A stretch of 64,000 nt of DNA from NCBI GenBank assembly GCA_016791045.1, contig JAEUNO010000015.1, forward strand, positions 246,471 through 310,470, given 5' to 3'. Origin of the DNA: Methyloversatilis sp. Its GTDB lineage: Bacteria; Pseudomonadota; Gammaproteobacteria; Burkholderiales; Rhodocyclaceae. Numbering within the stretch: the first letter of the stretch is position 1; every line of letters starts with the position of its first letter. Below the pieces are notes generated by a model. It ran no database searches. It saw only the letters and a program-made list of their open reading frames with translations, and was not told the origin of the DNA. Shown here one piece after another: positions 48,957 to 63,591 of the stretch. Both the position numbers and the translations under genes were made by a program.

Positions 48957-49910
48957 TCAGCGCTGTTCCGCGCTGTCCGAAGCACCGGAAGACAGCCTGC
49001 GCCGACGCTTCACGGCACCGAATCCCACGACACCGAGGCCGACGAGCATGAGCAGCGCGGTCTCCGGCTCGGGTACAGGTGGCGGCTGCACATAGTCGTA
49101 GCCGCTCGCGCCTTCGATGAAGACATCCGCGGACGGGTCGGCCGACGAGAAGTACAGATAGGCGGAATTGCCATAGGACGACTGCGCCGCCCGGCCATTC
49201 AGTACATCGATCTGTTCCCACGCAGCGGTGCTTACACCGTTCGAGGCGCGCAGACCGTAATTCACGTACAGGGTTTCGCCCACAAAGGCGGTGAACGAGC
49301 CGCCGATGTCATCAATGCGCCTGGGCGTGCCGCTCGCGTTGTCGCTGTCGCCGAACACGAGCCAGGGGAAGATGCCGTTGCGTCGGCCGTGCACGCTCAG
49401 GAAGATGGAGCCCGGTCCTTCGCCGCTGATGTCGAGCAGGGCGCTCAGCGTGACTGCCGTACCGTCGGCAAGGGTCGAGGAGCGGATCTTGATCTGATCG
49501 TCGATTTCGACATAGCCGTAGGCGCTCATGCCAGGCTGGCCGCCTCCGGTGCCGTCGAGCCGAACGTCCACGGAAGCGTGCAGCGAACCCGGTCGCGCCC
49601 GCGCGATGGCATTGCCGGTGAACACCATGTTCGGAACGGAACTGACGTTTCCGGGGAGGAACACATCATGGTAGAGCTCGCTGCTCACCCATACGCCATC
49701 CGGATCGGAGCCCAGCAAGGGCTCGTCGACCCACTGATTGCATTCGCGCAGGATGTTGTTCGTCGAACACGATGTATTGCCGGGCCCAAGGGTGAGCCGG
49801 TTGAATACGGTTTCGACATGAGCGGCGACCCAGGCGGTGGCGGCCTGGGCAGACAGGCTGGTCAGCGCGAGCAGAAGCGCGACCGAGAGGTTCCAGAAGG
49901 CGATTCGCAT
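48957..49910 (-). CDS. PEP-CTERM sorting-domain surface protein
   Basis: 317 residues from ATG 49910 (GGAG eight bases upstream; a GTG at 49919 is less likely). Signal peptide LSVALLLALTSLSAQAATA. The C-terminal signal is VPEPETALLMLVGLGVVGFG followed by KRRRR, a canonical PEP-CTERM, then an unusually long tail of about 15 residues after the basic cluster. The mature part is strand-rich and Ser/Gly-rich with one early Cys pair (TSCSTN and RECNQW); no enzyme motif. Divergent from another PEP-CTERM gene at 50236. It is expected to be cut by exosortase A. Confidence 0.9.
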   Translation of the reverse strand: MRIAFWNLSVALLLALTSLSAQAATAWVAAHVETVFNRLTLGPGNTSCSTNNILRECNQWVDEPLLGSDPDGVWVSSELYHDVFLPGNVSSVPNMVFTGNAIARARPGSLHASVDVRLDGTGGGQPGMSAYGYVEIDDQIKIRSSTLADGTAVTLSALLDISGEGPGSIFLSVHGRRNGIFPWLVFGDSDNASGTPRRIDDIGGSFTAFVGETLYVNYGLRASNGVSTAAWEQIDVLNGRAAQSSYGNSAYLYFSSADPSADVFIEGASGYDYVQPPPVPEPETALLMLVGLGVVGFGAVKRRRRLSSGASDSAEQR

Positions 49911-50235
49911 GTCGGTCACTCCTTCGTGTGCCAGAACTCAGTCTAGGTCACGGACGTGCGATATACACGTACTGGAAGCAGCCGGCGCGCCGGTCTCGCC
50001 GGCCGGCGCAGCAAGTCCACGAAAGCCGATGTCCATGCCGTGCGGTTTGCCACGATTGCCGGGCCGGACTACGCACTCCTTCGTATTGTGCCGAACCCCC
50101 TGCGCTGATCAGAATGCCTTCAGCGTTTCGGGCGCAGTGCCGCAGCACTCTACCGCGTGCCCGCCCGTCCGCCGCCGCGATGCACCGTACCACCGGTGTC
50201 GGCCGCGGATCTGGTCCGGAAACAGAAGACGAGTC
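49911..50235. promoter_or_regulatory. Shared divergent upstream region of two PEP-CTERM genes
   Basis: A 325-bp non-coding stretch between two divergent PEP-CTERM genes; short ORFs here have no family features. It must hold both promoters. I looked for -24/-12 elements of the kind found at 30126-30142 and did not find a complete one on either strand; TGGCACACGA occurs 15 bp before the left-hand gene's ATG but lacks the -12 half. Confidence 0.4.
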
Positions 50236-50991
50236 ATGAAAACCATCGTACTTGCGGCCTCGATTCTGGTCGCCCTGGCGGGCGGCGCACGCAGCGCCTT
50301 TGCCGCGCCCGTCGTCGTCAGCACCCTGCCGTCATGGGACGGCAGCGCCAGCATCGGCGACTTCGGCTCTTCGGGGTTCTCCGCGTGGGGCCAGTTCTTC
50401 GTCGCACCGACGGGCACCAACCGCCTCATCGACTTCACCTTCCTGCTGAGTGACGCCATCCAGGGCGGCAACACGAATCCGGTGCCGGTCACGATGCAGG
50501 CGCATCTGGTGCAGTACAACCCGTTCACCCGCCTCATCATCGGCCCGACGCTGTACAGCAGCGCCGAGATCACCGTTCCGGTCACATCCGCACTGCAGTT
50601 CGAGCTGTACAAGTTCAACGTCGATGCGGCGGTCATCGCCGGCAGCACCTACATGATGTTTCTGTTCGCGAACAATTTCGAGCTGCAGATCCCGGACGAT
50701 TCGCGGCTGCGGCTGGCCACGTCGGGCAGCGATCTCGCAGGCGGTGCCTACAACATTCCGATGTCGGCTTTCGCCGATCTCGATACCGCACTGGCCTCCC
50801 CCTGGCGATTCACGGCCGGAACCGACCTCGCCTTCTCGGCGACCTTCGACAACCGCCCGACCGCGCCGATACCCGAACCCGACACGCTGTTGCTGCTGGC
50901 GACGGCGGGTGCGGCAGGGCTGTGGGCCGCGCGGCGGCGGCCTGCAGGCGCGAAGGGGCAGGCCACGCCGGCGGCATCGCCTCGGGCGTGA
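50236..50991 (+). CDS. PEP-CTERM sorting-domain surface protein
   Basis: 251 residues from ATG 50236. Signal peptide TIVLAASILVALAGGARSAF. The mature part is strand-rich with no Cys and no enzyme motif. It ends in IPEPDTLLLLATAGAAGLWA followed by ARRR, a PEP-CTERM signal, and then a 20-residue low-complexity tail (Ala/Pro/Gly-rich) beyond the basic cluster, longer than usual. Likely exported, processed by exosortase A and placed on the surface or in the matrix. The PYP cassette starts 366 bp downstream. Confidence 0.9.
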   Translation: MKTIVLAASILVALAGGARSAFAAPVVVSTLPSWDGSASIGDFGSSGFSAWGQFFVAPTGTNRLIDFTFLLSDAIQGGNTNPVPVTMQAHLVQYNPFTRLIIGPTLYSSAEITVPVTSALQFELYKFNVDAAVIAGSTYMMFLFANNFELQIPDDSRLRLATSGSDLAGGAYNIPMSAFADLDTALASPWRFTAGTDLAFSATFDNRPTAPIPEPDTLLLLATAGAAGLWAARRRPAGAKGQATPAASPRA

Positions 50992-51357
50992 CGCTGAACA
51001 TCCGGCCGGGCGACGGGTGTGCCGTGCAGCACAGCCTGATCAAGCACGGCACGCCCGACCGCACCGCAGGCGCCGGTACGTTGGAAACCTCGCGGCACGG
51101 CGCTACAGCGGCGCGCCCGGATGCCCCTCAGGGCCGCGGCAGCCATTAAGCGGACGCCAACAGGTCGCCGCTTCGCCAACGCACCGAGTATCGAGGCGCC
51201 CAGGCACGCCTACGGGCACTCACCGCGCCAGCCATGCGCTGAACTGACCGTCTTCCCGGCTGTCTGCCGACTCGCACGGTCGGCACGTGGGTGTGCGATA
51301 GGCATCCGGGCCGACAGATGCCATCCTTTCCCCCTGCACACATCCGAACCTGCTTTC
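50992..51357. other. Non-coding stretch upstream of the PYP cassette
   Basis: 366 bp between the PEP-CTERM gene and the ammonia-lyase gene, same strand. Open frames cross it in several frames but show no protein-like sequence. It should contain the promoter of the ammonia-lyase/ligase pair; I see no convincing -35/-10, sigma-54 element or strong terminator. A GGCACGTGGGTGTGC stretch near 51280 resembles a -24/-12 element but has 11 rather than 10 nt between GG and GC. Confidence 0.4.
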
Positions 51358-52920
51358 ATGACCGCAGCTGCACAGCACACGGCGGCCGTTGTTTTCGACG
51401 GTCAGCCACTCGACATTGAAGCCATCGATGCCATCGCGCACGGCAGGCGGCGCGCCGTATTGTCCACCGATCAACGGTTCCGAGAACGCATCGATGCCGG
51501 CGCCCGCGCCGTGCTGCAACTGCTCGCCGACGACGGCGTGATCTACGGCGTCACCACCGGCTACGGCGAATCGTGCACGGCGCCGGTGCCGCCCGCCCAG
51601 ATCGCCGAACTGCCGCATCACCTGTACGCCTATCACGGTGTCGGCCTGGGGCGCCTGCTCGACGCCGAGGAGACGCGCGCGGTGCTGGCGGTGCGGCTGG
51701 CGTCGCTGTGCCAGGGCATGTCGGGCGTGCGCCATGCGCTGCTGCAGCAGATCGAGGTGTTTCTGCGCCATGACATCCTGCCCTGCATTCCGGCCGAAGG
51801 TTCGGTCGGCGCCAGCGGCGATCTGACGCCGCTGTCGTATGTCGCCGCCGCGCTGTGCGGCGAGCGCGACGTGCTGTGGCGGGGCCGGAGGATGCCGGCG
51901 AAAGAGGCGCTGGATCAGGCCGGTGTCGCGCCGCTGGCGCTGCAGCCGAAGGAAGGTCTGGCGATCATGAACGGTACGGCCGTCATGACCGCGCTGGCCT
52001 GCCTCGCGTGGCAGCGGGCCCGACGCTGCAGCCGCATCGCCACCCGTCTGACCGCGCTGAACGTGTTCGCGACGGCCGGCAATCCGCACCACTTCGACGC
52101 GCTGCTGTTCGACGCCAAGCCGCATCCGGGGCCGCGCGCAGTCGCGCGCTGGCTGCGCCGCGACCTCGCCTGCGCCGACGCTGAGGGCCGCAATCCGGCG
52201 CGACTGCAGGACCGCTATTCACTGCGCTGCGCGCCGCACGTGATCGGCGTGCTGGAGGATGCCCTGCCGTTCGCCCGCTCCCTGATCGAGAACGAGCTGA
52301 ACAGCGCCAACGACAATCCGCTGATCGACCCCGAATCGGGTCGTGTGCTGCACGGCGGCCATTTCTACGGCGGTCACGTGGCGTTCGCGATGGACAACCT
52401 CAAAACCGCGGTGGCCAATGTGCTCGACCTGCTGGACCGGCAGCTGGCGCTGCTGGTGGACAGCCGCTTCAGTCACGGCCTGCCCGACAACCTGTCGGCC
52501 GCCCCGGCCGACCGCAGCGCGATCAATCACGGCCTGAAGGCGCTGCAGATCGCGGTGTCGGCGTGGACCGCCGAAGCGCTGAAGATGACGATGCCGGCGT
52601 CGGTGTTCTCGCGCTCGACCGAATGCCACAACCAGGACAAGGTGAGCATGGGCACGATCGCGGCACGCGACTGCCAGCGCATCCTCGATCTGGGCGACCA
52701 GGTGCTGGCCGCCCTGCTGATCGCAGCCCGCCAGGCCGTCACGCTGCGGCTGCGCAGCGACGGCGGCACCTTGCCGCCGGTACTGTCGGACACGCAGGCT
52801 TGGCTCGCGGCGCACATTCCGCTGGTGGTCGAGGACCGCGCACTGGATCAGGATCTGCTGCATCTGATGCAGGTCCTGCGCGACGAAAGCGCCCGCAACC
52901 TGCTGGAGTCGGGCGAGTGA
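51358..52920 (+). CDS. Aromatic amino acid ammonia-lyase, predicted tyrosine ammonia-lyase
   Basis: 520 residues from ATG 51358 (weak ribosome site; the frame is open further up without family similarity). The MIO cofactor triad is Ala152-Ser153-Gly154 in GSVGASGDLTPLSY. ELNSANDNPLID and HNQDKVSMGTIAARDC are typical active-site segments of the family. The selectivity loop reads His87-His88-Leu89 (LPHHLYAYHGVG), like the His-Leu pair that gives tyrosine preference in Rhodobacter TAL; histidine lyases differ here. Predicted reaction: L-tyrosine to p-coumarate plus ammonia. No hut genes are near. It overlaps the ligase gene by GTGA, giving the chromophore precursor for PYP. Confidence 0.88.
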   Translation: MTAAAQHTAAVVFDGQPLDIEAIDAIAHGRRRAVLSTDQRFRERIDAGARAVLQLLADDGVIYGVTTGYGESCTAPVPPAQIAELPHHLYAYHGVGLGRLLDAEETRAVLAVRLASLCQGMSGVRHALLQQIEVFLRHDILPCIPAEGSVGASGDLTPLSYVAAALCGERDVLWRGRRMPAKEALDQAGVAPLALQPKEGLAIMNGTAVMTALACLAWQRARRCSRIATRLTALNVFATAGNPHHFDALLFDAKPHPGPRAVARWLRRDLACADAEGRNPARLQDRYSLRCAPHVIGVLEDALPFARSLIENELNSANDNPLIDPESGRVLHGGHFYGGHVAFAMDNLKTAVANVLDLLDRQLALLVDSRFSHGLPDNLSAAPADRSAINHGLKALQIAVSAWTAEALKMTMPASVFSRSTECHNQDKVSMGTIAARDCQRILDLGDQVLAALLIAARQAVTLRLRSDGGTLPPVLSDTQAWLAAHIPLVVEDRALDQDLLHLMQVLRDESARNLLESGE

Positions 52921-54155
52921 CGGCAGCCTGGCACACCGACGAGGCGGTGGTCGCCCGCGTGCTGGCCGACCTGATCGCCGATGAAATCCGTCGCCTCAGG
53001 CCGGGCGGCAGCGCCCCGCCGCCGCCCTGGCCGGCGCACATGGCGCTGGATGAAACCGGTTTCGGACTCGACTCGCTCGAACGCTACACGGTGGCTGCGG
53101 CGATCGCCGAAATGCTGCAGCTTCACGAATCTTCGATGATCGATGCGCTGCCCGCGGCACGGCAGTTCGGACAGTGGTGTGGGCTCGCCGCGGAAGGGCT
53201 CGCGCAGGCGGGCACGCACCTCACCTTCCGCACCTCCGGCAGCACCGGCACGCCGAAACCGTGCCGCCACGCGCTGCACACACTCGAAGCCGAAGCCGAC
53301 GCGCTGGCCGACTACATCGGGCCGCGCCGGCGGGTGCTGCTGGCCGTTCCGCTGCATCACATCTATGGCTTCATTTTCGGGGTGCTGCTTCCGCCACGGC
53401 TGGGCGCCACCGGCGCGGAAGACATCCGGCAGCTGTCGCCGCTCGCGCTGGACGGCCGGTTGCAGGCGGGCGACCTGATCGTCAGCCACCCGGCGCACTG
53501 GGCGCTGGTCGAGCGCTTCTGCCCGCGGCTGCCCGCCGACGTGGTCGGGATCACGTCGACGGCGCCCTGCCCGGACGCCCTCGCCGACGCGCTGATCTCG
53601 AAAGGTCTGGCGCGCCTGATCCAGATCTACGGCAGTTCCGAAACGGCGGGCATCGGCTGGCGCGATGCCGCCGGCGCGGCCTTCGAACTGATGCCGCACT
53701 GGCAACGCACCGGGCACGACACGGACGCCGGCGACCCGTTGCTGTGCCAGTCATCGGCGGACGGCACGACGGTTCAGGCCGTGCTGCAGGATGTGCTCGA
53801 ATGGCTGCCTGACCGCCACCGCCACTTCCGGCTTGCCGGGCGGCGGGACGAGGCGGTGCAGGTGGCCGGCGTGAATGTGTTTCCGGCCCGGGTGCGCGCC
53901 GTGCTGCTGGAACACCCGCTGGTCGAGGCGTGCGCGGTGCGACGCATGTCGGCCGGGGAAGGCGAGCGCCTGAAGGCCTTCATCGTGCCGCGCGCGGGCG
54001 CGGCCGCCGCCGCGTTACTGCCCGAGCTTGAAGCGTGGGCGCGGGAACGACTGTCCGCGCTGGAATGTCCGCGTGGCTGGACTTTCGGCGACCGGCTTCC
54101 GGTGGATGAGCGTGGCAAGCCCGCAGACTGGTCCATCGCACCGCCGGCGCGTTGA
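52917..54155 (+). CDS. Acyl-CoA/p-coumarate ligase-like adenylate-forming enzyme
   Basis: 412 residues from the GTG that overlaps the ammonia-lyase stop. LTFRTSGSTGTPKPCRH is the phosphate-binding loop and IYGSSETAGIGW the second ANL core motif. The C-terminal domain has FRLAGRRDEAVQVAGVNVFP and ends near DERGKPADW, with the catalytic-type Lys. It is shorter than plant 4-coumarate ligases (about 540 aa), like the compact ligases found with PYP genes. Predicted to activate p-coumarate to the CoA thioester used to load the chromophore onto PYP Cys. Followed by a hairpin and the PYP gene. Confidence 0.85.
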   Translation: MTAAWHTDEAVVARVLADLIADEIRRLRPGGSAPPPPWPAHMALDETGFGLDSLERYTVAAAIAEMLQLHESSMIDALPAARQFGQWCGLAAEGLAQAGTHLTFRTSGSTGTPKPCRHALHTLEAEADALADYIGPRRRVLLAVPLHHIYGFIFGVLLPPRLGATGAEDIRQLSPLALDGRLQAGDLIVSHPAHWALVERFCPRLPADVVGITSTAPCPDALADALISKGLARLIQIYGSSETAGIGWRDAAGAAFELMPHWQRTGHDTDAGDPLLCQSSADGTTVQAVLQDVLEWLPDRHRHFRLAGRRDEAVQVAGVNVFPARVRAVLLEHPLVEACAVRRMSAGEGERLKAFIVPRAGAAAAALLPELEAWARERLSALECPRGWTFGDRLPVDERGKPADWSIAPPAR

Positions 54156-54180
54156 GGCGAGGGCGGCGAACCCCCTCGCC
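54156..54180 (+). terminator. Hairpin between ligase and PYP genes, possible attenuator
   Basis: GGCGAGGG and CCCTCGCC form a perfect 8-bp stem with a 9-nt loop starting at the first base after the ligase stop codon. No T run follows, so it may be an mRNA processing or partial termination site that separates PYP levels from the biosynthetic genes. Two more small palindromes follow before the PYP start: GCGGATCCGC (54185-54194) and CGGCAAAATGCCG (54205-54217). Confidence 0.5.
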
Positions 54181-54308
54181 CAGTGCGGATCCGCTCAAGT
54201 TTGGCGGCAAAATGCCGATACGTAGAACGCTATCTAAAGTAGCCATCGCCTCAGCTTTGGCATCCGGTGCGCCGCGTCGCGGCCGGAGATTCAGACTCAA
54301 GGAGCCCC

Positions 54309-54701
54309 ATGAACACTGAACATACCGTGTCCTTTGCCGACGCAGCCATCCTCGACTTTCTCGAGCGCGCCAGCGATGCCGAACTGGACGGACTGGATTT
54401 CGGCGTCATCGGCATGGATGACGCCTCGCACGTCACGCGCTACAACCGTTTCGAATCGGCTGCCGCAGGGCTTTCGCCCGACCGCGTGCTCGGCCATGCG
54501 CTGTTCACGGTCGTCGCACCGTGCATGAACAACTTCATGATCGCCCAGCGCTTCGAGGATGCGCAGCAGGATGGCAGCGCACTCGACGACACCATCAATT
54601 ACGTGCTGACGCTGCGCATGCGGCCGGTCAAGGTGAAGCTCAGATTGCTCGCCCGACCCGGCAGCGCGCTGCGCTATGTGCTGGTCCACCGCCAGACCTG
54701 A
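54309..54701 (+). CDS. pyp: Photoactive yellow protein (blue-light receptor)
   Basis: 130 residues from ATG 54309 (GGAG upstream), compared with 125 in Halorhodospira halophila PYP. Aligned by eye, the chromophore Cys69 is Cys72 in VVAPCMNN, Tyr42 is Tyr45 and Glu46 is Glu49 in RYNRFES, and Met100 is Met104 in LRMRPVKVK; ELDGLDFGVIGMD matches the N-terminal core. Thr50 and Arg52 of the Halorhodospira protein are Ala53 and Leu55 here. It binds p-coumarate as a Cys thioester and is a soluble PAS-fold photoreceptor. Synthesis genes lie just upstream and c-di-GMP enzymes start 13 bp downstream, so its output is probably c-di-GMP. Confidence 0.95.
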   Translation: MNTEHTVSFADAAILDFLERASDAELDGLDFGVIGMDDASHVTRYNRFESAAAGLSPDRVLGHALFTVVAPCMNNFMIAQRFEDAQQDGSALDDTINYVLTLRMRPVKVKLRLLARPGSALRYVLVHRQT

Positions 54702-54714
54702 CAACGGAGCCCGC

Positions 54715-56025
54715 ATGAGCGCACCGGTAGAACAGGAATACGAAGCGCTGCTGCAGTTCATGTACATGGCCCCGATCGGCCTGGTGCAGACGCTGGCGGA
54801 CGGCGAGATCACCATGGTCAATCCGCTCTGTGCGCAGCTGCTGATGCCGCTGTCCCCGGATGGCCAGCTGGCCAACCTGTTTACGGCACTCGAAGCCGTC
54901 GTGCCCGACCTGCGCCAGCGCGTGCGGGAGTTTCCGGATGCACACGGCACCATCTGCGACGCCCAGCAGGTGCCGATCTCGACCGGCCAGGCGGGCCGCC
55001 GGCAGCATCAGGTGCTGTCGCTGACCCTGCTCAAGCTGGACGCCGAGCGGCTGATGGCCGTGCTGTCTGACGTGACGCAATCGGTCCGCCGGGAGCGCGA
55101 ACTGCGCCAGAGCCAGGCCTGGATCAACACCCTGGCCATCGGCCTGAGCGATTACGCGCTGGTGTCGCTCGACCACCATGGCTGCGTGCAGGACTGGAAC
55201 CCGAGCATCAGCCGGATCACCGGCTTCAGCCGCGAGCAGGTCGAAGGCCGGAGCCTGTCGCTGTTCTACCCGGCCGATGCCATGTCCGACCAGCGTGTGC
55301 TGGATCGCCTGCACGAGGCCGATCTGACCGGCTGGAGCCTGGACGAAGGCTGGTGCGTGCGTGCCGAGGGCGGCCGCTACTGGGGCAGCTGCCTGATCGC
55401 CCCGCTGCACGACAGCGACGATGACCCGTCGGACGAACACGCCTACAGCCTCATCATCCGCGACGTATCGGATCGGCGCGAGGCGGCCGAAGCGATGCTG
55501 AAGGCCGTGTCCTGCGATCACCTGACCGGGTTGTTCAATCGCCGCGCCTTCGTCGAGGCGGCCGAACTCGAAATGCAGCGCTGGGCCCGCTCGCCGAGGC
55601 CGCTGTCGCTGGTGATGATCGATGCCGACCATTTCAAGCGGATCAACGACCAGTACGGGCATGTCACCGGCGACGGCGTGCTGCGCCACATGGCCGCCAG
55701 CATGACCGCGACCTTCCGCGCGATGGACGTGCTGGCGCGCTTCGGCGGCGAGGAATTCATCGTGCTGCTGCCGGATACGTCGCTCGAGGGCGCCGAGCTG
55801 GTGGCACAGCGACTGTGCCGCCTCATCGAGGCCACGCCGGCCGTGGTCGGTGAACATACGGTGCGTTACACGGTCAGTGCCGGTGTCGCGGCCATGGATG
55901 CCGACGCGACCGATTTCGACGCGCTGGTGCAGCGCGCCGACGAGGCGCTCTACGCCGCCAAGGCCAAGGGGCGCAACCGGGTCGAACGCTGGCAACCCGC
56001 CACCCTGCCGGCGGCTGTGCGATGA
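54715..56025 (+). CDS. PAS-PAS-GGDEF diguanylate cyclase
   Basis: 436 residues from ATG 54715. An N-terminal PAS-like domain (about 8-120, with ITMVNPLCAQLLMPL), a second PAS domain (about 132-262, with VQDWNPSISRITGFSREQVE), then a GGDEF domain. The active site is intact: VMIDADHFKRINDQYGHVTG and GGEEF at residues 344-348. The product-inhibition site RxxD is in place (Arg335-Asp338, RAMD). It makes c-di-GMP in the cytoplasm. No membrane segments, so it could bind PYP or other soluble partners. Follows the PYP gene by 13 bp and is ATGA-coupled to the next gene. Confidence 0.93.
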   Translation: MSAPVEQEYEALLQFMYMAPIGLVQTLADGEITMVNPLCAQLLMPLSPDGQLANLFTALEAVVPDLRQRVREFPDAHGTICDAQQVPISTGQAGRRQHQVLSLTLLKLDAERLMAVLSDVTQSVRRERELRQSQAWINTLAIGLSDYALVSLDHHGCVQDWNPSISRITGFSREQVEGRSLSLFYPADAMSDQRVLDRLHEADLTGWSLDEGWCVRAEGGRYWGSCLIAPLHDSDDDPSDEHAYSLIIRDVSDRREAAEAMLKAVSCDHLTGLFNRRAFVEAAELEMQRWARSPRPLSLVMIDADHFKRINDQYGHVTGDGVLRHMAASMTATFRAMDVLARFGGEEFIVLLPDTSLEGAELVAQRLCRLIEATPAVVGEHTVRYTVSAGVAAMDADATDFDALVQRADEALYAAKAKGRNRVERWQPATLPAAVR

Positions 56026-57806
56026 GCGTAGACGTCGATGCGGAGGATCTCCAGCCGCCCAATCTCGAGGCGCTGATCCAGTTCCTCTATCAGGCGCCGA
56101 CCGGCCTGCTGCAGATCCGGCCCGACGGCACGGTGACGATGATGAATCCGCGCTCGGCGCAGCTGCTGATGCCGCTCGCGCGACAGGGCAATCTGGACAA
56201 TCTGTTCGAGGTGCTGGCCGAGGTCGCTCCCGATCTGCGCGCCATGGTCGCCGCCGCCGCCGAACCCGGTGCGCTGGTGTGCGAAGGACTGCGCATGCCG
56301 GTGCTGCCGCCGACGCACAGCCGACGCGTGCTCGGCCTGAGCCTGCTGCGGCTCGACGCCCGCACCATCATGGGCTGCGTCAATGACGTTACGCATGAGG
56401 TGGAACTGGAGCAGCAGCGCCTGGCATCGCGGATGCGTGACGCATCGCGCACCGACAGCCTCACCCAGATGCCGAACCGTGCCGCCGTGCTCGAACGCAT
56501 ACAGCAGGCGCTCGCACGTTCGGAAGATGAAGCCCCGCCCCACTTCGCCGTGCTGTTCATCAACTTCGACCGCTTCAACCGGGTCAATCTGACGCTCGGG
56601 CAGGAAGGCGGCGACCGGCTGCTGCGCATGGTGGCGGAGCGGCTGAACAGCACTGTCCGGCAGCGCGATGCGGTCGGCTTGCCGCACGAATCCCTGCACA
56701 CGACCGCCCGGCTCGGCGGCGATGAATTCGTGCTGCTGCTCGACGGGCTGCGCGACAGCGAGGATGTGCACAGCGTCGCGCAACGGCTGATCGACACGCT
56801 GTCGCGGCCGTATCTGATCAATGGCACCGAAGTCCATATTTCAGCCAGCATCGGCGTCGTGGCCGGCGTGCATACCGCGTCGCTCGCCAACACGGTGCTG
56901 CAGGACGCGAGCCTGGCCATGCAGGAAGCCAAGCGTGCCGGCGGCGGACGCCATGTGCTGTTCACCCCGGCGATCAAGGACAGGGCGACCCGACGCGGCG
57001 TCATGGAGCATGAGCTCAGGCACGCACTCGAACAGAAGGAACTGTTCGTCGTCTACCAGCCCATCGTCGGACTGCCCGAAGCCCGCGTCGCGGGCTTCGA
57101 GGCACTGGTGCGCTGGCAGCACCCGGAGCGCGGTGTCGTGTCGCCGATCGAGTTCATCGAGATCGCCGAAGAGTGCGGCCTGATCGGCGCACTCGGCGAA
57201 TTCGTCCTCAGTTCGGCCTGCCGCCAGCTCATCGCGTGGCAACGACAGTTCGGCCGCGACATGCCGCGCATGATTTCGGTCAATCTTTCGCGCGCCCAGC
57301 TCAATGACGCGGACATCGCCCGTCAGGTCGAACGCGTGCTGCACGCGACCCGCATGCCGGCCGCGTCGCTGCAACTCGAAGTGACTGAAAGCATGGCCGC
57401 CCAGGGCGATGACATCCGCACCCGCCTGCTCGAACTGAAGGCGCTCGGCATCGCCCTCGCGCTGGACGATTTCGGCACCGGCTACTCCTCCCTCGCCTGC
57501 CTCGGCCAGCTGCCGATCGACGTGGTCAAGATCGACCGTTCATTCGTCGCCGACGCCGAAACCAATCTGCACAAGCGCGTCCTGATCGAAGCCACCGTAC
57601 GCGTCGCCCGCAGCCTCGGCATGAGCACCACCGCAGAGGGCGTCGAAACCGACGGTCAGGCCGCCCTGCTCACCACGCTGGGCTGCAACAAGGGCCAGGG
57701 CTACCTGTGGTCCCGCCCCATGACGGCCCGCGCCGCCACGCAGTGGCTGGCTGCACAGAGCGAAGCGAGCCGGGTGGTTGAAGCCGTGCCGGCTGCGGTG
57801 CGGTGA
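56022..57806 (+). CDS. PAS-GGDEF-EAL protein, predicted c-di-GMP phosphodiesterase
   Basis: 594 residues. The N-terminal PAS-like domain (about 14-125, with VTMMNPRSAQLLMPL) is a close paralogue of the one in the preceding cyclase. GGDEF is present at residues 232-236, but the metal-binding Asp of the upstream DxD-type segment is Asn (LFINFDRFNRVN) and no RxxD inhibition site is seen, so cyclase activity is doubtful. The EAL domain looks complete: GFEALVRW (Glu360), ISVNLSRAQL, LEVTES, LDDFGTGYSS, VKIDRSFV, TAEGVE and QGYLWSRP. Predicted to break down c-di-GMP, opposing the upstream enzyme. Confidence 0.92.
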   Translation: MSVDVDAEDLQPPNLEALIQFLYQAPTGLLQIRPDGTVTMMNPRSAQLLMPLARQGNLDNLFEVLAEVAPDLRAMVAAAAEPGALVCEGLRMPVLPPTHSRRVLGLSLLRLDARTIMGCVNDVTHEVELEQQRLASRMRDASRTDSLTQMPNRAAVLERIQQALARSEDEAPPHFAVLFINFDRFNRVNLTLGQEGGDRLLRMVAERLNSTVRQRDAVGLPHESLHTTARLGGDEFVLLLDGLRDSEDVHSVAQRLIDTLSRPYLINGTEVHISASIGVVAGVHTASLANTVLQDASLAMQEAKRAGGGRHVLFTPAIKDRATRRGVMEHELRHALEQKELFVVYQPIVGLPEARVAGFEALVRWQHPERGVVSPIEFIEIAEECGLIGALGEFVLSSACRQLIAWQRQFGRDMPRMISVNLSRAQLNDADIARQVERVLHATRMPAASLQLEVTESMAAQGDDIRTRLLELKALGIALALDDFGTGYSSLACLGQLPIDVVKIDRSFVADAETNLHKRVLIEATVRVARSLGMSTTAEGVETDGQAALLTTLGCNKGQGYLWSRPMTARAATQWLAAQSEASRVVEAVPAAVR

Positions 57807-57994
57807 GGGGTTGGGGGGATACGGATAGTGCTGCTAGACGCGACGTAAGTGCTGCCCTGGAAATCGTCTGCTGATCGCTCGCCACGACGCTCTGCTGCGC
57901 TACGAGGCAGCGTTAGAAGCGCACACCATGACCTTGCTCTCGCGCGTGTAGACGAGAGGGTGTCTAGAAAACCCGGGGCGATTCAGTGCATCGT

Positions 57995-58456
57995 CTAGCG
58001 CACGGGCACTGTCACCCTCAGATGGCGGCATGAATAGCGCTGCTGTACCCAGGACACGGCAAAGGTTTCAGAAACCTCGTACCAGTTGCCGCCTGGATGG
58101 CCACCACCGTGGTTCTCCCCCATGCAGGAGCATTCGCAATGAAAGCCTGCCGCGTTCCAGCATACCGGAGCGCATTTCTGGTGCTCCCGGTACAACTGGA
58201 TCACGTAGACCTCATGGTGTCGTCTCAGCGCAAGTTTGATCACGCTGTCGAACCACGCAGTCGGAATTTCCCAGGCCTTGAACTGCGCGCACCAGTCAGG
58301 CTTCAAGCGTCGGCCATCTCGCAGCCACTCCATATTCCCTTCGGCGAATGGAATACGCGCCAGGATCGGGAGGGGCTTGTTGCGTTTGAATATGACGGGG
58401 ATATTTCCCTGACGCCAGAGATCTTTCAGTTTCGAGTCACTCAGATCCTGTGACAT
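57995..58456 (-). CDS. Unknown Cys/His-rich protein
   Basis: 153 residues. I do not recognise it. The centre has CAPVCWNAAGFHCECSCMG and then ENHGGGHPGGNWYEVS: five Cys and three His within about 30 residues, a likely metal-binding site. The N-terminal half is Trp-rich and basic (LWRQGNIPVIFKRNKPLP, WEIPTAWFDSVI). There is no signal peptide or membrane segment. It is the last gene of a minus-strand group with less GC-rich DNA than the core, next to the XRE-ImmA gene, and probably belongs to the mobile or defence island. Confidence 0.65.
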   Translation of the reverse strand: MSQDLSDSKLKDLWRQGNIPVIFKRNKPLPILARIPFAEGNMEWLRDGRRLKPDWCAQFKAWEIPTAWFDSVIKLALRRHHEVYVIQLYREHQKCAPVCWNAAGFHCECSCMGENHGGGHPGGNWYEVSETFAVSWVQQRYSCRHLRVTVPVR

Positions 58457-58741: not shown

Positions 58742-59950
58742 TCAGGATTTGGAAACTGGCCGGAACGGCACCACCTTACTGCCTTGGGCCGGTTGGTCAT
58801 CAACCGGCTTCTGGGTTGCTTTCAGTCGCGCAAACTCCACGATATTGGTTTCGCCCTGGAAGTAGCCTTCGGGCAGTCCGGCGAGTGCTTCAACGTCGCC
58901 CGCAGCCAGTCCGATGTGCCTGGGGATGGCTTCTAAGGGCATGACCTTCTCTCCGACGAGCAGATCAATGGTGCGACGAAGCAGGCGTGGCTGCTCTGGT
59001 CGACGGTCCTCGTCTCCGGGTTCAGATTTCGCACCCCACCTAGCAGAGCGACGCTTGAAAAGCATCAGAGCGCCATCCTCATCCAGCAACTCAAGAGCCT
59101 TCAGCCGCATGATGATCGCCGCTGCCGACACGCCCCAACGTCGCTTCAACAGCAACAAGTCATCCAGAGTCGGTGGCACACGAACTTCGCTGGCGAACGT
59201 TTCGGCGGGCAGCAAAAAAGCACCTGCGAAGCGGTGTGCCTGCGCTTCCATCATTTTGTGGCGCGCGTTGTCTGTCGTGCGCTGAATGTGACGATGCAGG
59301 ATTAGATGCCCGACCTCGTGGGCAAGATCGAAGCGACTGCGGTACCCATTGTTTTTGTCGGCGGACAAAAGAATGAGCGGTCGCCCCAGTGCTTCACTCC
59401 AAGCCGACAGCCCTTCGATCTGAGCGATGCCGGTTTCTTCTCGGACGACGATCACTCCAGCGCCTTCCACGGCCAGCGCCAAGTCTTGAATCGCCGAACG
59501 GCCCAAGCGCCACAGGTCCCGGCATTCGCTGGCAGCCTTCTCGATGTCCTCGTTAGTGATCTCTTCTGGATCGGTGTAATCGCGAGAGGGCAAATTGACA
59601 TCGGGGTAGTCAACGTACTCCATCAGAGCAGCCGCCACGTCTTGGGCCCACTCAAGGCGGGCCTCAAGCATGGCTCGTGCAGCGACGTGTGCTGACGCAT
59701 TGCTGCGGAAAAGCGGCAACGACAACTTCGCCCCGGGCGCACGCGTAAACCATTCCGGCGAAACGTTGACCACGCCAGCAAGGCGTTCAAGCGCATCACG
59801 CTCGGGCGCTTGTGTTCCTGCGCGCCACTTACTGATGGTTGCCGGAGACACATCGACCATCGAAGCCAGCTGGACTTGAGTCAGACGCCGGGCCGCAAGA
59901 ATCTGTCCAAGTCGATCTTTCTGAAATCCTTGTACACCGCCCCTGCTCAT
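58742..59950 (-). CDS. XRE-HTH plus ImmA/IrrE metallopeptidase protein
   Basis: 402 residues. An N-terminal XRE helix-turn-helix (QILAARRLTQVQLASMVDVS, ISKWRAGTQAPERDALERLA, about residues 10-70) is joined to an ImmA/IrrE zinc peptidase domain with FDLAHEVGHLILHRH (HExxH). Such proteins cleave or control a repressor or toxin, in prophages, ICEs and defence loci. The C-terminal 110 residues are not recognised. Coupled by ATGA to the 218-residue gene upstream, which suggests the two products form one toxin-antitoxin or defence unit. Confidence 0.9.
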   Translation of the reverse strand: MSRGGVQGFQKDRLGQILAARRLTQVQLASMVDVSPATISKWRAGTQAPERDALERLAGVVNVSPEWFTRAPGAKLSLPLFRSNASAHVAARAMLEARLEWAQDVAAALMEYVDYPDVNLPSRDYTDPEEITNEDIEKAASECRDLWRLGRSAIQDLALAVEGAGVIVVREETGIAQIEGLSAWSEALGRPLILLSADKNNGYRSRFDLAHEVGHLILHRHIQRTTDNARHKMMEAQAHRFAGAFLLPAETFASEVRVPPTLDDLLLLKRRWGVSAAAIIMRLKALELLDEDGALMLFKRRSARWGAKSEPGDEDRRPEQPRLLRRTIDLLVGEKVMPLEAIPRHIGLAAGDVEALAGLPEGYFQGETNIVEFARLKATQKPVDDQPAQGSKVVPFRPVSKS

Positions 59951-60603
59951 GATCCTGTTCCGTCTTTGTCTTGCTGTTTGCCAACGTTCCTCTTCAGCTT
60001 CGGTACAGCCAAATCGTCTTGGCCCGCCGTCGGCTGCTGTTCGTATCGCTTGATGAATGTGCCAATGGGTTCCCGGAAAAGCCAGCCCTGCATGTAGCGA
60101 TCAGGGACTGCAATTTCGATGGAGACGGGAGTGTCCGGCCGGCTGTGCAGTGATCCCGCAAAGCAGGCCACGATGAACACAACCGCTTGGGACGGCTCCA
60201 CGTAGCCAGAAAAAAGTCCGGGTTGAACCAGTGGCTCGATGGCAGCGTTTGCCAGCGACATCTGTTTTCGGGTTTCGCTACGCCGCCCGCTGTTCCAGAC
60301 CCCATATTTGGTGTTGAACCGCGCCAAGATGAAGATCCCAGCCCGGCCTGTGACTATCTGATTGCCGCGCAGCGGGGAAGGAGAGGCGTCCGCAACGGCG
60401 AGTGCGCGATGGAAGGACTCATTCATATGGAAGTGGCGCAACTGACCAACCACACTGGGCAAGTGCCCGTCATCCATCCCTCGCGCTGCCGCATAGGCAC
60501 GTTGAGCGCCGACCAGCTTGGCTTCTTCGAGGCTCATGACAAGCTCACGCGGGATATTCCGCACGAGCAGGTCATGGATCGTTTCTTGGATCGGCTGGGT
60601 CAT
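59947..60603 (-). CDS. Unknown protein paired with XRE-ImmA gene
   Basis: 218 residues from ATG 60603, chosen because GGAG lies six bases upstream; an ATG at 60618 has no such site. No family recognised. Visible pieces are EETIHDL-like QETIHDLLVRNIPRELVMSL at the N-terminus, RHFHMNESFHRALA, GIFILARFNTKYGVWNSGRR, and a predicted strand pair with VVFIVACFAG. There are no membrane helices. The ATGA overlap with the XRE-ImmA gene implies joint action; in RosmerTA-type defence pairs an ImmA-like protein is the antitoxin and its neighbour the toxin, which would fit, but this is not shown. Confidence 0.7.
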   Translation of the reverse strand: MTQPIQETIHDLLVRNIPRELVMSLEEAKLVGAQRAYAAARGMDDGHLPSVVGQLRHFHMNESFHRALAVADASPSPLRGNQIVTGRAGIFILARFNTKYGVWNSGRRSETRKQMSLANAAIEPLVQPGLFSGYVEPSQAVVFIVACFAGSLHSRPDTPVSIEIAVPDRYMQGWLFREPIGTFIKRYEQQPTAGQDDLAVPKLKRNVGKQQDKDGTGS

Positions 60604-60652
60604 TGGCAACTCCGTCATCAGATTTTGTTCTAACGGATTCTATAATCAAATA

Positions 60653-60776
60653 GTTTCGTTTAAAACGTTTTTTTAAAAATCGATGCAGTTTAAGCCGTAT
60701 TACTCACAGTTTGTAGCGCACCCAGCGCATCGCCTGCCAGCGGCGAGGCCGGGAGACATGGAAAAATGTTTCGTTT
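60653..60776. repeat. GTTTCGTTT direct repeats upstream of abiE
   Basis: GTTTCGTTT occurs at 60653-60661 and 60768-60776 in the AT-rich 221-bp gap between the divergent 218-residue gene and abiEi. The first copy is part of the palindrome CGTTTAAAACG (60657-60667), and the second pairs with CGAAA at 60784-60788 (TTTCG, 10 nt, CGAAA). AbiEi-type antitoxins bind repeats in their own promoter, so these may be operator sites. Low confidence. Confidence 0.4.
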
Positions 60777-60824
60777 TATCTTCCGAAAGTTTAATTCGAC
60801 GAAATAAAGGAACATACTTCAACC

Positions 60825-61430
60825 ATGCACTCCAGTACCCACACTCAGCGCGTCCTCGATCTGGCCAGCCAGAAGGGGCTACTGCGCGCCAGCGATCTGG
60901 ACGCCATCAGTGCGCCTCGGGTCGTTCTGACGCGCCTGACCGCCGCGGGTCTGCTGGAGAAGGTGGGGCGTGGCCTGTACCGTCTGCCGGATGCACAGGT
61001 TTCGGAATTCGAGAGCCTTGGCACCATCGCCACCAAGGTACCTCAAGCGGTGTTCTGCCTGCTCACGGCACTGCAGTTTCATGAGCTGACCACGCAGCTG
61101 CCGCGTCAAATCTGGATCGCCATGCCTCGGGGCAGCCACCCGCCCCGTATCGACTACCCGCCCGTCAAGATGGTGCAATTCACGGGCGATGCATACTCGG
61201 CAGGGATTGAGGAGATCGAACGCGACAGTGTCAGGCTCCGCGTGTACAGCGTGGCCAAGACCGTGGCGGACTGCTTCAAGCACCGCAACAAAATCGGTCT
61301 GGATGTGGCGCTGGAGGCGCTGAAAGACGCCCGTGCGCGCGGCAAGGCCTCCGTCGACGACATCTGGCGTTTCGCCAAGATATGCCGAGTGGCCAACGTG
61401 ATGCGCCCCTACCTCGAAAGTGTCGGGTGA
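60825..61430 (+). CDS. abiEi: AbiEi-family type IV antitoxin/transcriptional regulator
   Basis: 201 residues from ATG 60825. An N-terminal winged helix (QRVLDLASQKGLLRASDLDA, VLTRLTAAGLLEKVGRGLYR) is followed by the AbiEi C-terminal domain (VFCLLTALQFHELTTQLPRQ, RVYSVAKTVADCFKHRNKIG). It represses its own operon and blocks AbiEii toxicity without direct binding (type IV toxin-antitoxin). Overlaps the toxin gene by GTGA. Such pairs give abortive infection against phage and stabilise mobile elements. Confidence 0.92.
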   Translation: MHSSTHTQRVLDLASQKGLLRASDLDAISAPRVVLTRLTAAGLLEKVGRGLYRLPDAQVSEFESLGTIATKVPQAVFCLLTALQFHELTTQLPRQIWIAMPRGSHPPRIDYPPVKMVQFTGDAYSAGIEEIERDSVRLRVYSVAKTVADCFKHRNKIGLDVALEALKDARARGKASVDDIWRFAKICRVANVMRPYLESVG

Positions 61431-62302
61431 GCGCGGCCACCCCGAATGTCGCGGCATCCGTCCGTGCGCGCCTGCTCAACGTCGCCAGGGCACAAGGCGT
61501 CGATTTCAATCAGGTGCTGGTGCGCTTCGCCCTGGAGCGCATCCTCTACCGGCTGACCCAGTCGCCGCACGCGGATCGCTTTCTGCTCAAAGGTGCGCTG
61601 CTGTTCACGCTCTGGTACGACATGCCACACCGGGCCACACGCGATGCCGACCTCCTGGGCTTTGGTGCCAGCGATCCGGAGTCAGTGGCCCGAGTATTCC
61701 GGGACATCGCAGCTGTAGCGGTCGATGACGGCATCGTGTTCGATCCTGCCTCCGTCACGGTCGAAGAGATCCGCAAGGCGGCTGGCTACGGCGGCGTTCG
61801 CGTGATCATTGCGGGCGATCTGGCCAGAGCACGCTGCAAGACCCAAATCGACGTCGGCTTCGGCGACGCAGTCACCCCGGCGCCTGTTGATTCGGTCTAT
61901 CCGGTACTGCTGGAGGAAATGCCCGCACCGCGACTGCGGGCCTACCCAACGTACACCGTCATCGCGGAAAAGCTCCACGCCATCGCTTTGCTGGGCATGA
62001 CCAACAGCCGCTTGAAGGACTACTTCGATCTGTCGGTGCTGTTGGAACGAGAAACTCTGGACACCGATCTGCTGGCCCGGGCGATCAAGGCCACGTTCGA
62101 AAGACGGGGCATGGCGGTTCCTGATGCGCTGCATGGCGGGGTGCTTGTGGGCCTGACCGACGAGTTTGCGCACGACGCTTCGCGCCAGGCGCTGTGGCTG
62201 GCATTTCTCAAGAAGAACGAACTTCCGCCAGAACCCTTGCCCGCCATCGTCGGCCGCTTGAGCGTGGCATTGGCACCCGCGTTGAACGCCGTCGCTCGTT
62301 GA
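61427..62302 (+). CDS. abiEii: AbiEii-family nucleotidyltransferase toxin
   Basis: 291 residues from GTG 61427 overlapping the antitoxin stop. Motif I of the AbiEii/MenA family is seen in RFLLKGALLFTLWYDMPHRA followed by TRDADLLGFG (the D-x-D metal site), then KTQIDVGFGDAVTPAP with the third acidic residue, and AEKLHAIALLGMTNSRLKDY (motif with Lys and Asp). Characterised relatives add nucleotides to tRNA or use GTP to halt growth on infection. Together with AbiEi it makes a complete pair with no visible damage. Confidence 0.92.
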   Translation: MSAATPNVAASVRARLLNVARAQGVDFNQVLVRFALERILYRLTQSPHADRFLLKGALLFTLWYDMPHRATRDADLLGFGASDPESVARVFRDIAAVAVDDGIVFDPASVTVEEIRKAAGYGGVRVIIAGDLARARCKTQIDVGFGDAVTPAPVDSVYPVLLEEMPAPRLRAYPTYTVIAEKLHAIALLGMTNSRLKDYFDLSVLLERETLDTDLLARAIKATFERRGMAVPDALHGGVLVGLTDEFAHDASRQALWLAFLKKNELPPEPLPAIVGRLSVALAPALNAVAR

Positions 62303-62344
62303 ATATCCTTTCATAGGGCAGCGGCTTCGCGCCCTTCGCCACGG

Positions 62345-62698
62345 TCAGTGGTGGTCGCGATAGCCTGCGGGCGACTTGTAATGGTCTTCCATCCGATGGG
62401 GCTGCTCATCGACCTTGTCGAGCCAGGCGCGGCGGATGGCCAGATGGTCGGCAGCCCAATCCAGCAGATCGGGCGTGACCTTGTCTTTCAGCTTGTCCGG
62501 CGTCGAGAACGCGGCGTTGGGCAGCTTCAGCTCGGGCGGCAGGAGGCGCGGGATCTGCTGACGGGCGACGCCGTAGACCTCGAAGGTGTCGATGAGGCGC
62601 TTGGCCTGGGCGCGGGCCGGGTCAAGGCGGTCGCGCAGCAGGCTCCACGCCTTGCCCAGAAGCCCGAACACGCCCGTGGCTTCGCCGACGATCGTCAT
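62345..62698 (-). CDS. Small unknown protein downstream of hsdS
   Basis: 117 residues from ATG 62698, two bases after the HsdS stop, so cotranscribed with it. I do not recognise a family. The order is an N-terminal hydrophobic/helical stretch (FGLLGKAWSLLRDRLDPARA), a RLIDTFEVYGVARQQIPRLL segment, then LLDWAADHLAIRRAWLDKVD, which looks like the part after the helix-turn-helix in some phage-type regulators, though no HTH is evident. It ends with a His/Tyr-rich tail. Convergent with abiEii, 42 bp apart. Confidence 0.7.
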   Translation of the reverse strand: MTIVGEATGVFGLLGKAWSLLRDRLDPARAQAKRLIDTFEVYGVARQQIPRLLPPELKLPNAAFSTPDKLKDKVTPDLLDWAADHLAIRRAWLDKVDEQPHRMEDHYKSPAGYRDHH

Positions 62699-62700
62699 GC

Positions 62701-63591
62701 TCAAGCCACCTCGTCGATCAGGGCTTCGGCCAGGTGGGCTTGGGTGGTCTGGCGGGCGGTGAGGCGTTGGCGCAGGTCGGCGCACAGGCGGCGAAGCGAT
62801 TCGACGCGGGCGACGATGCGGGATTGTTCCGCTAGAGGAGGTAGCGCAACCAGAAATAACACCAACGAATCTTGGTTCAGCTTTGGCATCTTCACCCGGT
62901 TTTCAGCAGCTTTCACTTGGTCGAGGAATGGTTGACCGAGGATGTACAGGAGCAGGTAGTCTGAATCCAGCATCGACTCGATGGGATACATGTCCGCGCT
63001 ACAAAGACCCTCAAAATCAACAAGTACAGCCTTTGAAAGGGATGGACGGATCTTTGAGTAGAGGATCTGACCAGGCTTGAATAAGTGGTTGGGGCTGATG
63101 ATCTCGGCCTGTGCAACTGTTCGTTTTTGGAGCAGCCGTCCAGTCCCCTTTTCTATGCAGTCAGGCGCTACTTGCAGCTTTCCTTGGTGCTGAGCTGGAG
63201 GGACGAGATTCGATGCGATGACTGCAATTTGACCGAATCGGACCCACTGCCACCCAACGGGCAGGTCAAACGGCTCGTCCTCGATTGCGATGGGTGCCAA
63301 TGGCTTTTCGCGCTTGAATTTGCCAGCCGCGATCAGACGATCCTTCTCCGCGCGAATCTTCTTCAGCAGTTCGCTGGCGGGTTCGTCGTTCGGGTCTTGG
63401 GGCACGAGCAAGCCACGTACGGCCAGTTGCAGGATGGTTTGTTCCAGGGCGTCGATGGCTTCGGGGCGGTCGAGCAGGACGTCGAAGTGGGTGGCGACGC
63501 GTTGCCAATTGTCGGCCAGCTCTTCAGGAGAGGCGCTGGCGGTCAGTTCGCCCAGCAGGGTTTGCACGAGTTGAGCGTGTTGCGTCGCCAC
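62701..63591 (-). CDS. hsdS: Type I restriction-modification specificity subunit, half-length
   Basis: 296 residues, against 400-580 for a normal HsdS with two target-recognition domains. The conserved N-terminal part (DALEQTILQLAVRGLLVPQD, PASELLKKIRAEKDRLIAAG), one recognition domain (about 90-235, from LPVGWQWVRFGQIAVIAS) and one coiled-coil spacer (ALPPLAEQSRIVARVESLRR) are seen. It reads as an intact half-subunit, not a frameshifted gene, and could act as a homodimer that recognises a symmetric site. No hsdM or hsdR is in the window; they may lie past the right edge, although hsdM usually sits directly upstream and here a different gene does. Confidence 0.88.
   Translation of the reverse strand: MATQHAQLVQTLLGELTASASPEELADNWQRVATHFDVLLDRPEAIDALEQTILQLAVRGLLVPQDPNDEPASELLKKIRAEKDRLIAAGKFKREKPLAPIAIEDEPFDLPVGWQWVRFGQIAVIASNLVPPAQHQGKLQVAPDCIEKGTGRLLQKRTVAQAEIISPNHLFKPGQILYSKIRPSLSKAVLVDFEGLCSADMYPIESMLDSDYLLLYILGQPFLDQVKAAENRVKMPKLNQDSLVLFLVALPPLAEQSRIVARVESLRRLCADLRQRLTARQTTQAHLAEALIDEVA

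Follow-up and report, generated by a model that had tools for sequence, protein, structure and literature searches.

The operon described here lies within a window of 64,000 nucleotides, the whole stretch of DNA that was analysed, from Methyloversatilis sp. (assembly GCA_016791045.1, contig JAEUNO010000015.1, positions 246,471 to 310,470). As read from the window sequence, five genes follow one another on the forward strand in the order aromatic amino acid ammonia-lyase, 4-coumarate-CoA ligase, photoactive yellow protein (PYP), diguanylate cyclase, and GGDEF-EAL protein, the last two being predicted enzymes of cyclic diguanylate (c-di-GMP) metabolism (Table 1). The GTG start codon of the ligase gene sits inside the stop codon of the lyase gene (a GTGA overlap), only 13 bp separate the PYP gene from the cyclase gene, and the cyclase and GGDEF-EAL genes meet in an ATGA overlap. 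The coordinates, these couplings and the family matches agree with a preliminary description made from the sequence alone, which had read the locus as a light-sensing cassette with chromophore synthesis, photoreceptor and c-di-GMP output encoded as separate genes rather than as a fusion; this arrangement stands, but the idea itself had already been published. The search for the same gene order that the description had proposed found it in 7/7 PYP-bearing Methyloversatilis genomes among the 13 searched, and because the five-gene block is kept in all seven, it is conserved beyond chance expectation. (Eight of the 13 genomes gave a PYP match, of which that in G002, a partial match with an E-value of 3e-4 in a 466-residue frame, was scored as non-PYP.) A consensus scan of positions 50900–58100, including the ligase–PYP gap, returned no sigma-70-like promoters and no terminators, and the window gave no matches in searches for Rfam families or tRNAs. 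The strongest clue was missing from the preliminary description: both output enzymes begin with the same domain, here called NDOM, which in the samples searched is linked near-exclusively with PYPs of one clade, clade C.

Table 1. Genes and domains of the operon, in window coordinates.
Feature	Coordinates	Strand	Basis
Aromatic amino acid ammonia-lyase, probably tyrosine ammonia-lyase (makes p-coumarate)	51358..52920	+	PF00221, MIO triad, Gln426
4-coumarate-CoA ligase (activates chromophore)	52917..54155	+	TIGR02372; GTGA overlap with lyase
Ligase–PYP gap, 153 bp	54156..54308	+	consensus scan
Single-domain PYP, clade C type	54309..54701	+	family profile, solved-structure match, residues
Diguanylate cyclase: NDOM, PAS, GGDEF	54715..56025	+	Pfam, GGEEF and RAMD
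NDOM copy 1 (shared N-terminal PAS-fold domain), proposed PYP receiver	54715..55110	+	
Second PAS domain of cyclase	55162..55473	+	PF13426
GGDEF domain of cyclase	55513..55980	+	Pfam
GGDEF-EAL protein, probably c-di-GMP phosphodiesterase	56022..57806	+	Pfam, motifs; ATGA overlap with cyclase
NDOM copy 2 (shared N-terminal domain)	56022..56435	+	45% identity to copy 1
GGDEF domain of GGDEF-EAL protein	56451..56945	+	Pfam
EAL domain	57012..57719	+	Pfam

The two N-termini share 45% identity across 120 residues (E 3e-32), and the domain itself has about 130 residues. NDOM does not correspond to a common Pfam PAS domain: neither window copy matched any Pfam family at E 0.001, and of 105 members searched at E 0.01 a single one gave a match, to PAS_4 (E 5.5e-4). 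An AlphaFold model built on 105 rows shows a PAS fold followed by a C-terminal helix, with a predicted local distance difference test score (pLDDT) of 89.6 and a predicted TM-score (pTM) of 0.79. Foldseek searches with this model returned mostly PAS-containing proteins among the 50 matches listed, with a best E-value of 5e-5 and modest TM-scores of 0.36–0.54. By its predicted fold, NDOM is a member of the PAS superfamily. A decayed PYP was rejected as its origin (hhalign probability 1.7%, E 0.03).

The distribution of NDOM follows that of PYP at every level sampled. Within the genus, where all candidates were scored, each of the seven PYP-bearing genomes carries two NDOM copies and each of the other six carries none. 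In an order-wide sample of 399 genomes, profile searches detected PYP in 12, and NDOM in 11 of those same 12 and in no other genome (Fisher 1e-20, with kinship ignored and the 11 genomes representing 5 genera); G160 is the one genome with PYP and without NDOM. In a class-wide sample of 369 genomes, NDOM was found in the source genome of the window, a borderline match in G662 (E 9.5e-6, in a 1457-residue frame) not being counted, and in a phylum-wide sample of 378 genomes it was found in two, both PYP-bearing. The PYP model TIGR02373 matched 75 of these 378 genomes at E 0.001 and five at E <1e-16; the 70 weaker matches were treated as ordinary PAS domains, and three of the five strong ones (G923, G945, and G1036) lie in frames of about 900 residues without NDOM.

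When 84,980 species genomes were scanned with a single motif, 134 stretches were returned, of which 126 were confirmed, and the best 80 of the 126 were taken as named loci. A clade C PYP gene lies directly upstream on the same strand in 79 of the 80, and the remaining one, L085, starts at the edge of its contig; the spacing between the PYP and NDOM profile matches in the 79 is 18–82 nt, with a median of 33. Outside Methyloversatilis, the core usually consists of a PYP gene and, immediately after it, a gene for an NDOM protein. Full flanks were available for 60 loci; all 60 contain PYP, 26 the ligase and 6 the lyase, the last two counts having been obtained with the window's own proteins, so that distant homologues may be missed; NDOM is tied to PYP more tightly than the chromophore genes are. 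Plasmids give the same picture: in 72,556 records, NDOM occurs in 11 and PYP in 13, the 11 all being among the 13. PYP stands directly before the NDOM protein in all nine plasmid loci examined (from eight records), and in the other three records the PYP and NDOM matches are 9–15 bases apart on one strand. These pairs include Alphaproteobacteria, and at the plasmid locus of Caballeronia M1242 a second NDOM protein follows the first. The loci of the different searches overlap, some being the same contigs. Because NDOM is found almost only next to a clade C PYP, it looks like a docking partner of the photoreceptor. The genes might instead travel together without sharing a pathway, PYP having some other target and the c-di-GMP genes being mere neighbours, as the 153 bp between ligase and PYP and the one clade C PYP that stands without NDOM would allow; but the PYP–NDOM gap stays short across Beta- and Alphaproteobacteria while ligase and lyase come and go, and we give this explanation very little probability.

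NDOM is found on three kinds of output protein, namely cyclases, GGDEF-EAL proteins, and HisKA-HATPase kinases. Four loci have an NDOM-kinase and PYP within one run of genes: in L070 and L071, it follows PYP directly, and in L062 and L064, PYP is followed by an NDOM-GGDEF-EAL gene and then by the NDOM-kinase. In a tree of 178 NDOMs, the bootstrap of which had not settled and the root of which is arbitrary, the GGDEF-EAL copies fall on one branch (80 rows, 100/99), as do the kinase copies (4 rows, 95/97). The cyclase domain has gone with NDOM retained in five of the 80 named loci: L105 and L110 keep NDOM alone with its PAS domain, and L108, L151, and L154 carry tandem NDOMs on one long GGDEF-EAL protein. 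In other loci (e.g., L087 and L152), the cyclase is present and the NDOM-EAL gene is absent. Because the cyclase is lost in some loci and the NDOM-EAL gene is absent from others, the pattern of loss gives no direction for a light effect. That the operon has an NDOM on both of its enzymes, and that three loci have fused tandem copies, could also mean that NDOM pairs with NDOM to bring cyclase and phosphodiesterase together, PYP acting indirectly, and PAS domains often dimerise. Loci with a single NDOM protein nevertheless keep an adjacent PYP, as in the kinase loci L070 and L071 and in eight of the nine NDOM-bearing plasmid loci examined, and such a pairing role has, in our estimate, little probability.

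The predicted activities of the two window enzymes are opposed. The GGDEF domain of the cyclase (E 8e-46) has a GGEEF site with RAMD five residues before it, and the EAL domain of the GGDEF-EAL protein (E 5e-71) contains the motif set EALVRW, TES, DDFG, KIDxxF, and AEGVE. Among relatives, GGEEF or GGDEF is present in 74 of 78 cyclase-type proteins, and the EAL motif set is complete, by pattern, in 65 of 71. The GGDEF-EAL protein is probably a c-di-GMP phosphodiesterase, and the pair is predicted to act in opposite directions on one signal molecule, c-di-GMP.

The window PYP matches TIGR02373 with 79.9 bits (E 2e-22), short of the cut-off of 143.05, and matches a solved PYP domain with E 6e-16; the TIGR02373 model has been reported to capture about 20% of BLAST-found PYPs (PMC9664959). 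The Cys, Tyr, and Glu of the chromophore pocket noted in the preliminary description are in place, the equivalents of Tyr42, Glu46, and Cys69 being Y45, E49, and C72. The uncharacterised clade C of the same source is marked by Phe92, Phe96, and Trp119 not being kept and Met100 being kept (PMC9664959), and at places 92, 96, 119, and 100 the window PYP has I96, L100, Y123, and M104; by these residue marks, it is assigned to the clade C type. All of 98 unique clade C PYPs retain the pocket Cys, 97 of them the Glu, and 95 the Tyr. These were compared with 13 unique clade-A-like PYPs that match the clade C profile weakly, the two sets being divided by an E-value cut of 1e-33 rather than by a tree and excluding identical copies and matches shorter than 80 residues (e.g., fragments in L072 and L091). 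There are 21 positions at which a single residue occurs in at least 90% of the 98, in at most 30% of the 13, and not in the PYP of Halorhodospira halophila, and 15 of the 21 fall in residues 72–82 and 96–109, from which we infer that these two segments are a candidate contact surface. An NDOM gene lies directly downstream of none of the 13 clade-A-like PYPs.

Nine loci (L078, L090, L091, L120, L139, L191, L192, L194, and L195) contain two PYPs, one clade-A-like and one of clade C; the clade-A-like copy adjoins the ligase, and in some loci also the lyase, and the clade C copy goes with the NDOM enzymes. In L071 (genome G199, positions 6413–6730), the PYP beside the NDOM-kinase is missing its initial portion, and His and Ala replace Tyr42 and Glu46, features that point to a PYP that is decaying or altered in function. 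The locus of G160 (L074) has four weakly matching PYP-like genes around a ligase, and NDOM is absent from it. The clade C PYPs of L188, L190, L191, L192, L195, and L197 are annotated as 'phosphonate transporter' in public records, a misnaming of PYPs that has been pointed out before (PMC9664959); the one in L188 neighbours a PAS-rich histidine kinase and a BLUF gene.

The first gene of the operon encodes a lyase that matches PF00221 with E 1e-156 and contains the 4-methylideneimidazole-5-one (MIO) triad Ala-Ser-Gly at residues 152–154, as had been noted. Its top NCBIfam match is the BagA/FevW tyrosine ammonia-lyase, at 402.8 bits against a cut-off of 1000. The His-Leu selectivity pair of the preliminary description was misplaced: alignment to a solved tyrosine aminomutase puts the pair at Tyr92-His93; chain 2o6y, which we take to be the Rhodobacter tyrosine lyase, agrees, its matched ranges placing these residues on chain positions 89–90. 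His88-Leu89 lies four residues before the pair, and its His is Arg in three of the seven lyases of named loci, all seven of which have Tyr-His at the selectivity place. The Rhodobacter type has His first in this pair, and the window lyase, with Tyr92, departs from it. The second motif, NQDK with Gln426, is as in tyrosine and phenylalanine ammonia-lyases and unlike histidine ammonia-lyases, the Gln-or-Glu difference at this motif being known to separate the two groups (PMC3992019). A histidine ammonia-lyase was rejected on the basis of this Gln (NCBIfam hutH, 383 of 539 bits). Tyrosine ammonia-lyase is probably the best call; it stands because FlxA, the enzyme of PMC3992019, has a first motif like that of histidine ammonia-lyases and yet makes coumarate, and it is supported because the gene adjoins those of the ligase and PYP. 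The ligase matches TIGR02372 over nearly its full length with 324.9 bits, just under the curated cut-off of 334.7.

Taken together, the operon is likely to be a self-contained blue-light c-di-GMP switch in which the free PYP acts via the NDOM of both enzymes. In such a switch, the lyase and ligase would produce p-coumaroyl-CoA, which would load the cysteine of the clade C PYP, and the free single-domain PYP would bind the PAS-fold NDOM at the N-terminus of each enzyme. Light would alter PYP, and the change may run through NDOM and its C-terminal helix, so that cyclase and phosphodiesterase would be set in opposite senses. The helix that follows a PAS domain is a usual route to GGDEF and kinase domains. 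As to NDOM itself, the balance of the evidence favours an unnamed PAS family that would serve as the dedicated docking port of free clade C PYP and is fitted to cyclases, phosphodiesterases, and histidine kinases.

Several points limit these proposals or weigh against them. PYP and NDOM, linked across the stop codon and predicted as a single chain, yielded a pTM of 0.54 from 19 rows and no confident interface, a result that speaks neither for nor against contact. The linkage could reflect inheritance of the block, the 11 genomes of the order sample coming from 5 genera; the wide genome searches scored at most 10–11 candidates per genome, and the motif of the collection scan, like the search seeds, came from PYP-linked NDOM copies. 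At one locus, L188 (CP099603, a Comamonadaceae plasmid), a clade C PYP has no NDOM within 5 kb, and at another, L073, a divergent NDOM-cyclase has no PYP in its 14 kb, PYP being found elsewhere in the genome. NDOM might also have a ligand of its own. It could then be an independent sensor PAS domain that responds to such a ligand or to a redox cue, with the operon joining a light input to a second one and PYP acting on another part of the enzymes; its fold resembles many ligand-binding domains, and Cys81 (window positions 54955–54957) is present in 95 of 105 NDOMs. An independent sensor should, however, also occur alone, and L073 is the one lone copy found here; the confinement of NDOM almost only to the side of clade C PYP, on three kinds of output, makes an independent sensor unlikely.

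The pairing of PYP with c-di-GMP genes is not new, because PYP beside GGDEF/EAL genes has already been published: 29 predicted pyp operons with GGDEF genes have been listed (PMC12826048), and diguanylate cyclases have been described as often lying beside clade C PYPs (PMC9664959). The loci of both papers share the neighbourhood and the proposed output of the operon described here. The sections consulted in both mention neither a domain shared among the output proteins nor its linkage with clade C, and a literature search, judged by titles and the beginnings of abstracts, found no printed account of the shared N-terminal domain. What is new is the NDOM shared by both output enzymes and its linkage with clade C PYP.

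Comparison with known systems sets the operon apart in several ways. The Halorhodospira halophila pyp operon (pyp, pcl, and tal; PMC12826048) also clusters PYP with lyase and ligase, but here the order is tal-pcl-pyp, two c-di-GMP enzymes follow, and the PYP is of clade C and not A. In Idiomarina loihiensis, a single-domain PYP with a neighbouring GGDEF gene has been linked to blue light and biofilm (PMC12826048, PMC9664959), blue light lowering biofilm there (PMC12826048); that PYP belongs to clade A, in contrast to the clade C type of the window. Rhodobacter capsulatus, compared by description only, has a single-domain PYP with a separately encoded PYP-binding protein, the one partner named in the sources consulted (2021 paper cited in PMC9664959). 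In Thermochromatium Ppd and Rhodospirillum Ppr, PYP is coupled to GGDEF/EAL or histidine kinase domains and fused with phytochrome, whereas here PYP is free and NDOM sits on the enzyme. To our knowledge, neither light nor a PAS receiver is part of the SiaC–SiaD system of Pseudomonas aeruginosa. That system, in which a cyclase is activated by a separate partner protein (PMC8457831), is an analogy and not a claimed relative.

PYP, a model photoreceptor, was isolated in 1985, and the way in which it hands on its signal was called an important gap in 2025 (PMC12826048); its partners had been called unknown or poorly understood in 2022, with one Rhodobacter PYP-binding protein cited (PMC9664959). 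With NDOM nearly always beside one PYP clade, the signalling question becomes a binding test on two small proteins. If the proposal is true, NDOM would, as far as the literature was searched, be the first domain defined as the receiver of an entire PYP clade, and a single photoreceptor would control enzymes of opposite effect through ports of one kind. It would also supply both halves of an optogenetic tool, the small free PYP as light sensor and NDOM as a portable port that already occurs on three kinds of enzyme.

The matrix idea of the preliminary description probably goes back to a large exopolysaccharide-type cluster at 311–24867, called by eye from reading frames, with glycosyltransferases, an exosortase-like membrane protein, and chain-length and tyrosine-kinase-like genes; an effect of light on the matrix is something that we can only infer. 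Two PEP-CTERM-type proteins are encoded upstream of the lyase, at 48957–49919 on the reverse strand (PF07589 match) and at 49837–50991 on the forward strand (C-terminus recognised by eye), and across six loci of relatives a single C-terminal motif match was found near the operon. On the downstream side, the operon is closely followed by a defence cluster at 58745–63591, which comprises an RmrA/RmrT-like pair, an AbiEi/AbiEii pair, and a type I specificity subunit.

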